From Paenarthrobacter ureafaciens (GTDB lineage Bacteria; Actinomycetota; Actinomycetes; Actinomycetales; Micrococcaceae), in NCBI RefSeq assembly GCF_004028095.1, contig NZ_SBHM01000007.1, positions 434,001 through 498,000 of the forward strand: 64,000 nt of DNA. Reading direction: 5' to 3'. The translations under genes were made by a program, and so were the position numbers. Shown here piece after piece: positions 39,144-41,035 of this stretch. Each line of letters begins with the position of its first letter. Position 1 is the first letter of the stretch. Under the pieces are notes generated by a model. That model had not been told where the DNA came from. It worked only from the letters and a program-made list of their open reading frames with translations, and made no database searches.

Positions 39144-39220
<77 letters not shown>

Positions 39221-39257: not shown

Positions 39258-39360
39258 GTTTTAAGTTGAGCCCGGGACCCGAGCCCGGGACCTTGGGCCG
39301 GGGCCTTGTCTCAAGGCACGAGACTCACGGTTGCGCCGCCGGGCTGTCCACGCATAAAAC

Positions 39361-39400
39361 GCAAAAAGAAACCCCGGAGCTGCTCGTGATGCTCCGGGGT
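39361..39400 (-). terminator. Rho-independent terminator of the peptide-precursor gene
   Basis: On the minus strand ACCCCGGAGC pairs perfectly with GCTCCGGGGT around a 10-nt loop, followed by TTCTTTTTGC. It begins 17 nt after the peptide stop codon, making the peptide gene a separate transcription unit. Confidence 0.88.
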
Positions 39401-39417
39401 TCCAGTCGAGTGATTGA

Positions 39418-39642
39418 TTACATCGGATCCGGCCAGTTGCCGATGGACGAGGTGGTGTACGTCGTCTCCGTTGTCTTGGTGGGTGCCGCTACGCTTGCGC
39501 GCATCGGATCAGGCCAGTTGCCAATGGCACTGAGCGAAGTGTCGGATTCAACGGTCGAAGCCGCGGAGACGACTGCGGGAGCCGCAACCGTGAACGCAAG
39601 CGCGCCTGCCAGTGCCACCGAGGCGGCGAGTTTCTTGAACAT
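39418..39642 (-). CDS. Secreted peptide precursor with two IGNWPDPM repeats (candidate pheromone)
   Basis: A 74-residue protein. Residues 1-27 are a clear Sec signal peptide (MFKKLAASVALAGALAF, then a V-S-A cleavage site before A28). The mature part is short and contains SAIGNWPDPM at 38-47 and SSIGNWPDPM at 65-74, the second ending at the stop codon. The DNA of the two copies (39421-39446 and 39502-39527) matches at 24 of 26 bases. GGGGA lies 5 nt before ATG 39642; an upstream in-frame TTG is less likely. The gene has its own promoter and terminator and faces a divergent Xre/TPR-like regulator. C-terminal pheromone copies behind a signal peptide are typical of Phr, PapR and NprX-type precursors. 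The function is inferred; no known family is recognised. Confidence 0.8.
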   Translation of the reverse strand: MFKKLAASVALAGALAFTVAAPAVVSAASTVESDTSLSAIGNWPDPMRASVAAPTKTTETTYTTSSIGNWPDPM

Positions 39643-39692
39643 ATTGTTCCCCAATGCGAGTCGGATTCGTTACGGAAATTGCGCGGTCCCTG

Positions 39693-39732
39693 TTGACATA
39701 CATTGTAAAATGTTTTCCACAGACACTGTCAA
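39693..39732. promoter_or_regulatory. Divergent promoter and dyad operator of the peptide/regulator pair
   Basis: The dyad ACATT-GTAA-AATGT (39700-39713) covers two overlapping -10 boxes: TACAAT on the minus strand (39702-39707) for the peptide gene and TAAAAT on the plus strand (39706-39711) for the regulator. The minus -35 TTGACA is at 39727-39732 (spacer 19). An outer inverted pair TTGACA (39693-39698) / TGTCAA (39727-39732) flanks the dyad. This AT-rich island stands out from the GC-rich surroundings. Confidence 0.6.
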
Positions 39733-39766
39733 GGTTTGGGTCGAAAGACACCGGAGGGAGGAACCC

Positions 39767-41035
39767 GTGGGAAACGGATTCGGCGAGAAACTACGTGCCG
39801 AACGGCTGGAACGCGGTCTGACCCAGGCCGAGCTGGGTAAGAACCTGTACTCCCCGAGCTACATCTCCCTGCTTGAAACCGGACGGCGCGAGCCCACCCA
39901 AGAGGTCATCGAGGAACTCGCCCGGCGCTTGGAATTGGCACCTAAGGCCTTGGAGGCCTGGAGCCAGCCCGTTTCAGTCAGTGACGCCGAGTACGTCCTG
40001 GCCGGTCTTTACGCCCGGCAGGCCTGGGACCTCCGCGACTACCAATTAGCCGCCAGTCATGCAGCAACGGCAGCGCAGATCGCCCTGGAAGCCAAGAACA
40101 ACAGCGCTTGGTGGAACATGACCTACATGCAGGCCGAGTGCGTCATGAAGCAGGGCCTGCTGAAGGAATGCCAGCAGATTGTCGAACACCTGCTGGAACA
40201 CCCTATGGCCACCGAGTCCGCAGGCTTGGGAGTGCGCGCCTGGCAGATGCTTGCTGCTGTGTGCCACGGTCAAGGCCAACTAGCCACCGCCGTCGAGCAT
40301 GCCAAGAAGGCAGTTGAACTCTCCAGTCAGCTGCCCAAGGGATCCACGCTGATCATCGGCGCCCACCGGGCGTTGATCGGTGCAATGGCTGAGAGCGGAA
40401 AACTGGATGAGGCGTGGGAGTACTGCCTTGCGATGATCGAGCACATGGATGAGCACTCCATGTCCCAGCTCGCCGGCGAGGTGGCCTGGGTGGTGGGCAA
40501 CGTCGCCTTCATGCGCCACGATTACGCAGAGGGCATCAAGCACCACGAACGGGCCGCCAAGCTCCTCTCCCCCGCCAACGACATCGAACTGTGGGCGCGC
40601 TTCAACAAGGCCTCCGCCGCAGTCCGGCTGTCCTCCGGAATCGTTGAGCCGGAGACGTTGTCCGCCATCGAGCGGGCCGAGTTGGCCCTGTCCATTGTGG
40701 GCGGCAACAAGACCGACCAGCTCGAAGTCGCTTTCATCCGTGCGCGCTGGCTGTACCTGACCGGTGATATTCCTGCCGCCGTCGACAAACTGCGGGAGAT
40801 TTACGAGGACCGCAAGGTCCTGGCCCGGCACACTGCCGGCGAAGTCTCACTTCTGCTCGGCAAGTCGTTGAAGGCTGCGGGCGAAACCGCCGAGGCGCTT
40901 CACTTCCTGGAGGAAGCACAGCACGACTTCAGCGCGGCGGGTGCCTCAGACCGTGTCCAGCAGGCCATGGACGCGGTCCTGGAAATCCGCTTGGCCGAAC
41001 GCCGCGCCGCCGCAACACACCCGGAAGCCGTTTAA
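39767..41035 (+). CDS. Xre-type HTH regulator with TPR-like repeats (candidate peptide receptor)
   Basis: A 422-residue protein. The N-terminal HTH covers residues 4-57 (FGEKLRAERLERGLTQAELG, SPSYISLLETGRREPT). The rest is helical with TPR-like helix pairs, for example YQLAASHAATAAQIALEAK, GQLATAVEHAKKAVELSS, DYAEGIKHHERAAKLL and GETAEALHFLEEAQHDF. This HTH plus TPR plan is that of RRNPP quorum-sensing receptors (PlcR, NprR, Rgg-like). GTG 39767 is chosen because GGAGGGAGG lies 5 nt upstream; a longer frame exists but runs across the promoter. It is divergent from the secreted peptide gene 124 bp away, which is its likely signal source. The ligand and targets are inferred. Confidence 0.85.
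   Translation: MGNGFGEKLRAERLERGLTQAELGKNLYSPSYISLLETGRREPTQEVIEELARRLELAPKALEAWSQPVSVSDAEYVLAGLYARQAWDLRDYQLAASHAATAAQIALEAKNNSAWWNMTYMQAECVMKQGLLKECQQIVEHLLEHPMATESAGLGVRAWQMLAAVCHGQGQLATAVEHAKKAVELSSQLPKGSTLIIGAHRALIGAMAESGKLDEAWEYCLAMIEHMDEHSMSQLAGEVAWVVGNVAFMRHDYAEGIKHHERAAKLLSPANDIELWARFNKASAAVRLSSGIVEPETLSAIERAELALSIVGGNKTDQLEVAFIRARWLYLTGDIPAAVDKLREIYEDRKVLARHTAGEVSLLLGKSLKAAGETAEALHFLEEAQHDFSAAGASDRVQQAMDAVLEIRLAERRAAATHPEAV

Follow-up and report, generated by a model that had tools for sequence, protein, structure and literature searches.

Among the peptide-sensing systems of the Bacillota that are grouped as RRNPP(A), those whose receptors bear a helix-turn-helix (HTH) domain include PlcR-PapR, NprR-NprX, Rgg-SHP, ComR-ComS and PrgX. 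A published signature for such systems comprises five features: a propeptide of 10–100 amino acids, its secretion by Sec, a receptor of 250–500 amino acids, tetratricopeptide repeats (TPRs) in the receptor, and direct adjacency of the two genes, by default within −60 to 400 bp (PMC10075063). In the accessible sections of the RRNPP papers, cytoplasmic signaling by peptides through TPR receptors is treated as a trait of the Bacillota. The scan described in those of PMC10075063 covered Firmicutes and viruses, and the signals of actinobacteria are characterized there as typically small molecules made by enzymes. Here we describe a divergent gene pair in the actinobacterium Paenarthrobacter ureafaciens, found in a window of 64,000 nucleotides (contig NZ_SBHM01000007.1, positions 434,001–498,000, assembly GCF_004028095.1; positions below are counted within the window). 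It consists of a small precursor with two copies of the octapeptide IGNWPDPM and a regulator with HTH and TPR domains, and is likely to represent an RRNPP-like peptide-receptor system of the Micrococcaceae, acting by the mechanism set out below.

Four of the five published features are present at the locus: the precursor has 74 residues, the regulator has 422, the latter matches four Pfam TPR models and is modeled as a TPR superhelix, and the two start codons of the divergent genes are 124 bp apart. The fifth, Sec secretion, is predicted by eye from the N-terminus of the precursor (MFKK, a hydrophobic stretch and VSA-A), and in its relatives by a hydropathy rule. The likeness to the Bacillota systems is best read as one of these features and of working mode. 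The precursor has the sequence MFKKLAASVALAGALAFTVAAPAVVSAAS...SAIGNWPDPMRASVAAPTKTTETTYTTSSIGNWPDPM*, and its two IGNWPDPM copies differ in codons only synonymously. It is followed by a hairpin of −25.6 kcal/mol (z −4.5), a stability equaled by none of 200 shuffled sequences; a simple terminator scan did not list this hairpin because its loop has 10 nt. In the regulator HTH_31, HTH_3, TPR_12, TPR_1, TPR_2 and TPR_14 score above the curated Pfam cut-offs and RNPP_C scores below its own. The AF2 model is a confident TPR superhelix over residues 70–418 or thereabouts; its fold match is generic for TPR proteins. The coordinates of both genes, the motif copy at the stop codon, the terminator and the HTH and TPR domains, all of which had been proposed in a sequence-only reading of the window, are thus borne out (Table 1).

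Table 1. Features of the precursor-regulator locus, in window coordinates.
Feature	Position	Strand	Remarks
Precursor ORF (open reading frame), 74 residues	39418..39642	−	N-terminal Sec-type signal (predicted) and two IGNWPDPM copies; ATG at 39642, TAA at 39420-39418
Terminal IGNWPDPM copy	39421..39444	−	Abuts the stop codon
Internal IGNWPDPM copy	39502..39525	−	Codons partly unlike those of the terminal copy
Stem-loop and T run, probable intrinsic terminator of the precursor	39358..39405	−	Folding energy
HTH and TPR regulator, 422 residues (proposed receptor)	39767..41035	+	GTG start at 39767; Pfam, AF2 model, coevolving M127, L132 and H167
Divergent promoter/operator block, TTGACA-N28-TGTCAA with CATTGTAAA inside	39693..39732	.	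Candidate regulator binding site

Homologs of the precursor number 64 at E ≤ 1 and are of unknown function. In them the motif, or a close variant of it, occurs one to four times with differing spacers; where a source is named, it is Paenarthrobacter, Arthrobacter, Pseudarthrobacter or Micrococcaceae. Matches to the regulator (E ≤ 0.001) occur in 45 of 59 relatives and in at least 169 of 295 genomes of the family, the weakest being matches to the HTH alone. The DNA around 94 regulators (L001–L094) was examined for a divergent ORF with a [GW]xWP[DNHE] core, and 78 have one by this rule: 55/55 where the regulator is at least 70% identical, 12/16 at 50–70% and 11/23 below 50%. L092, missed by the rule, was added by hand to give 79; among the 39 loci below 70% the precursor was thus lacking in 16 by rule and in 15 after hand correction. 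A further 19 regulators, 17 of them within the family, had 12 more precursors by eye, as the labels TPR-only, leaderless and precursor-like were also often assigned. Since 64 homologs exist and all 55 orthologous loci have a divergent motif ORF, the locus is not a chance arrangement. The search of relatives for co-occurrence that the sequence-only reading had called for has therefore come out in its favor, and orthologs without a precursor, which it had named as grounds for abandoning the idea, do not occur among the 55.

The converse search, with the tandem motif alone, gave 18 stretches with a precursor-like small ORF (by eye) among at least 163. Seventeen of these have a regulator homolog and the eighteenth (L227) is a satellite of the kind discussed below; the remaining stretches were judged by eye to be chance matches, and none was viral among the matches listed. 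The peptide codes differ by clade and include IGNWPDPM, VGNWPDPM/A/S/F, VGIWPNS, VGNWPDAV, PGIWPDSV, VGDWPH, with up to 8 copies, and VGNWPDR. Fifteen regulator paralogs have no recognizable precursor nearby (L061, L062, L071–L079, L084, L087, L088 and L094); these are possibly orphan receptors or partners of unrecognized codes.

The 55 precursors beside regulators of at least 70% identity contain 150 copies of the motif in 96 different DNA spellings. Residues 2–7, GNWPDP, are invariant in 150/150, residue 1 is I in 95, V in 49 and T in 6, and residue 8 is M in 131, A in 18 and V in 1. Each locus has 1–6 copies, which were counted apart from the rule-based scan, whose start codons are sometimes internal, and in 47 of the 55 precursors the final copy runs right up to the stop codon. 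Because GNWPDP is invariant despite 96 spellings, selection acts on the peptide and not on the DNA. When the 23 peptide variants are mapped on a tree of 75 regulators (the 78 with a precursor minus three TPR-only genes), they require 23 changes, one more than the minimum of 22. Random variation of the motif, which would have counted against the sequence-only reading, is therefore not seen; the core is fixed and the variants follow the regulator tree.

The identity of peptide residue 1 is matched within the regulator. At the 55 loci, I is found with M127, L132 and H167 in 32/32, V with I/W/Q at these positions in 20/20, and T with M/L/Q in 3/3. When 303 variable columns were ranked for co-change with residue 1, in the 67 of the 75 tree loci at 50% identity or more, column 132 came first (p 1.2e-7) and column 127 second (p 2.3e-7) by hypergeometric p-values that ignore branch lengths; 127, 132 and 167 had been singled out in a prior analysis, and 167 was outside the best 12. 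At the 12 more distant loci residue 132 is Y or F in V-type, W or F in P-type, and C in the T-type L069. Alignment to consensus TPR (CTPR) puts residue 167 at position 12 of its own repeat; residue 127, placed by eye from the glycine of its repeat, has the same position in the preceding one. We take position 12 to face the TPR groove. Residue 1 co-changes with residues 127 and 132 as it would with a binding pocket. For residues 7–8 column 67 ranks first. The partners of residue 8 are weaker and inconsistent; positions 389 and 404, considered as partners of M or A, were dropped since they fail in L038, L042 and L047.

Neighboring genes share a tree and the variant groups cluster on it, so that pairing and variant matching could in principle reflect shared ancestry alone, with no interaction between the products. 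Some of the switches could, moreover, have come by block exchange. This is possible at L024, L017, L020 and L042: segment 120–175 of L024 is closest to I-type genes while its other segments are closest to V-type, and that of L017, L020 and L042 is closest to I- or T-type genes. In L036 the same segment is closest to V-type L043. Against common descent as the whole explanation, L024 and L036, both of I-type, nest inside the V clade, as does the IGNWPDPA clade, and each of these returns from V to I is accompanied by M/L/H at 127/132/167. In a DNA tree of the 55 loci made without codons 115–180, in which several forks are weak, the I-type rows still lie among V-type ones, with 8 label changes against a minimum of 2. 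A second argument comes from precursors that are not linked to a regulator.

Such unlinked precursors, here called satellites, came from a scan for the octapeptide pattern, which matched in I-type form in at least 52 of 121 genomes of the genus and in V-type form in 49. Among the matches listed, both types occur in only five genomes (G699, G711, G715, G742, G752), and the I-type matches of P. ureafaciens itself are only the two primary copies. A subset of the matches, 21 I-type and 20 V-type loci away from the regulator, was fetched, and no regulator match was found within 1.5–2 kb on either side of the 41. Three kinds were distinguished. The first are leaderless multi-copy ORFs, in some of which IGNWPDPM or VGNWPDPM stands beside IGWWP-type motifs. 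The second are ORFs 11–20 residues long; five of them align, with a Shine-Dalgarno sequence and a hairpin resembling a terminator in common. In the third kind a longer ORF has the motif at its end, and one of these (L128) adjoins masked bases. The I-type satellites are in 16 genomes, all with a primary I-type. The V-type satellites are in 20, of which 15 are V-type, three I-type (G715, G742, G711) and one mixed (G752), with G029 left untyped; a further V match, not among the fetched loci, is in I-type G699. The primary was seen beside the regulator in 7/16 and 4/15 genomes; in the others the multi-copy cluster among the listed matches was assumed to be the primary. Satellite and receptor type agree with a Fisher p of 4.5e-7, or 1.9e-6 with G699, calculated on genomes and uncorrected for relatedness. 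Together with the returns from V to I, this leaves shared ancestry without interaction scarcely credible.

P. ureafaciens has a second receptor gene with no detectable HTH (L055, G000:C7:328399-329355, 372 residues), whose TPR matches are weak and below the Pfam cut-offs. It adjoins a precursor, predicted to be secreted, with IGWWPN at the stop codon, and similar TPR-only pairs are found in other genera (L091, IGDWPN; L337, VGNWPF; L338, GIWPY; L348, IDDWPH). These TPR-only paralogs resemble Rap in having TPRs without a DNA-binding domain and in lying beside a precursor, though a likeness of fold is generic for TPR proteins, and they are unlike the Rap-Phr systems of Bacillus in that no response-regulator partner is known for them. 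The motifs of both receptor classes occur in one leaderless chain at L114, L139, L140, L141, L143, L145 and L323.

The leaderless ORFs raise the question of where the peptide meets its receptor. It might mainly do so within the producing cell, as a ligand made by the ribosome in the cytoplasm, with export serving removal or timing rather than communication. The octapeptide occurs in many genomes in ORFs of 11 to about 90 residues without an obvious Sec signal (by eye), the five aligned small ORFs have a Shine-Dalgarno sequence, and even precursors linked to a regulator are short (about 20–40 residues) and without a clear Sec signal in some genera (L085, L086, L089, L341, L342, L343 and L351), as in MKILQAPNPASAGTRVGDWPD. 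In addition, 25 of the 41 satellites lie just downstream, on the same strand, of a proline- and alanine-rich, probably secreted protein that ends in DPGSSPD-stop, usually preceded by F or Y. At the main locus and its orthologs, by contrast, a predicted Sec-type signal has been kept (30/30 by eye; L031–L054 and L056 by the hydropathy rule), and some pheromones that lack a leader leave the cell by another exporter, such as the streptococcal SHP peptides by PptAB, described in the accessible part of PMC10075063. A ligand that acts mainly inside the producing cell is for these reasons considered unlikely, though it is the most serious of the alternatives.

The loci with the DPGSSPD protein are L125, L126, L129–L134, L137, L139–L145, L316, L318–L320, L322, L325, L326, L329 and L333. 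Its N-terminus is signal-like where inspected, including L334, the site of the DPGSSPD sequence in P. ureafaciens (G000:C7:273169-273192), which is followed by another secreted-looking protein and not by a satellite. The DPGSSPD C-terminus is possibly a second peptide signal; the search pattern was fixed beforehand, and its constancy comes partly from that selection.

The two genes of the pair share a control region. An alignment of 48 intergenic regions from the 55 orthologous loci (L049–L054 and L056 were left out) shows the 40-bp block, TTGACATACATTGTAAAATGTTTTCCACAGACACTGTCAA, to be conserved, and it recurs with its 28-nt spacing in other genera with HTH-type receptors. Scored over 400 bp upstream by a 20-letter template, written after the blocks had been seen, the orthologous loci have 20/20 letters in 48 and 17/20 in seven. 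At least 15 letters are found at 73/75 HTH-type loci with a precursor, the exceptions being L089 and L093, and at 2/14 HTH loci without one (L084 and L087, each 15/20). None of 12 loci of TPR-only genes reaches 15 (maximum 13), and shuffled DNA gave at most 14 in 94 trials. A strong shared promoter had been proposed for the pair. The shared block stands, being conserved at 55/55 loci, but a sigma-70 consensus scan found no promoter at the locus, so that the case for it is one of conservation among relatives. Read from the precursor side, TACAAT lies at about the position of a −10 box, and for this reason repression of the precursor promoter may be one reading. A search of the P. ureafaciens genome for copies of the operator that might define a regulon gave only the locus itself at up to three mismatches. 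The palindrome ACATT-n4-AATGT was dropped as an operator in favor of the longer block, since it is not kept across genera.

A promoter block common to both genes would also be expected if the regulator merely controlled the gene for a peptide that acts outside the cell, as an antimicrobial, a surface ligand or a protease inhibitor, and such effectors can be small secreted repeat proteins. This is highly improbable in view of the co-change of residue 1 with TPR residues, which tops 303 columns, the recurrence of the octapeptide in leaderless ORFs, and the presence of such precursors beside TPR-only paralogs that have no HTH.

A peptide-receptor system thus accounts best for what was computed, namely gene structure, family-wide pairing, selection on the peptide, coevolution and the conserved promoter block. 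In the mechanism that we infer, the precursor would be exported by Sec and proteases would release the octapeptide, two from each precursor here. A general oligopeptide importer would return it to the cell, where it would bind in the TPR groove of the neighboring regulator; residues 127, 132 and 167 would form part of the pocket for its first residue. Binding would then alter the action of the HTH at the divergent promoter block, and the pair would control its own expression and perhaps few other sites. The proposal that the peptide is a signal read by the neighboring regulator is in this way strengthened by pairing, constraint and co-change; secretion, cleavage, re-import, binding, the sign of regulation and the output are still inferred.

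As in the HTH-bearing RRNPP(A) systems, a small precursor lies beside a TPR receptor of 250–500 residues with an N-terminal HTH, the peptide is short and often C-terminal, a Sec signal is predicted, and receptor and peptide are matched. The differences are that the host belongs to the Actinomycetota, that there is a conserved GxWP core, which does not appear in the accessible sections of the RRNPP papers, that a precursor may have up to 8 copies, that extra precursors are unlinked, and that RNPP_C is below its cut-off. The tandem Phr propeptides Phr3T and Phr105 of Bacillus phages (PMC11343458, in the part accessible) likewise have more than one copy of the pheromone, internal and C-terminal, with unconserved spacers. 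The cases described there have two copies, whereas here there are 1–8, in many genera and with no phage match.

A tandem-motif scan of 396 genomes of the order matched 33, many by chance, since the reversed pattern used as a control finds many genomes too. The precursor-like in-frame ORFs among the matches with loci (by eye) are all within the Micrococcaceae. The scan of public genomes and viral contigs that gave the 163 or more stretches found such loci in Arthrobacter and Tersicoccus among the matches listed. Carriage by mobile elements was considered and dropped: a phage search gave no match, none of 47 motif stretches on viral contigs has a regulator, and the plasmid matches are HTH-TPR proteins of 25–30% identity, 22 of 24 records being from Streptomyces, and plasmid loci L310 and L311 have no small secreted ORF by the hydropathy rule. 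In other families of the order, L335 and L336 are HTH-TPR genes of 28–30% identity with divergent small secreted ORFs, which have ACC or PCC letters in place of GxWP and possibly carry a different code. The P. ureafaciens pair itself is flanked on one side by a tRNA-Pro gene (39144-39220) and what we take, from its sequence, to be an ABC-type exporter gene, and on the other by a presumably purC-like gene.

The literature on the motif, on actinobacterial RRNPP systems and on pheromones of Arthrobacter or the Micrococcaceae, in which subscription journals and bioRxiv were thinly covered, gave no counterpart among the records listed, in agreement with the earlier remark that no described actinobacterial system with this peptide is known. 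PMC9765709 contains none of the actinobacterial terms looked for, and among the texts searched GNWPD occurs only in a paper on influenza neuraminidase. Beyond the single pair first noted there is a family: its receptors fall into two classes, its peptide codes are many, and further precursors lie unlinked to a regulator. It is an evenly balanced proposition that this is an actinobacterial signaling family with a GxWP core, HTH-TPR and TPR-only receptors, clade-specific codes and scattered satellites, some of them leaderless and fusing both codes, in which a single receptor would combine a secreted signal of the cell's own making with those of other genetic programs. The system resembles peptide messages known from another phylum, and in the Actinomycetota such a family appears undescribed in the literature searched. 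On this reading small ORFs at other places in the genome should be signals too. The family offers dozens of peptide variants matched to their receptors, together with candidate residues for specificity, and so makes peptide recognition, orthogonality and the evolution of new codes directly testable in common soil bacteria.
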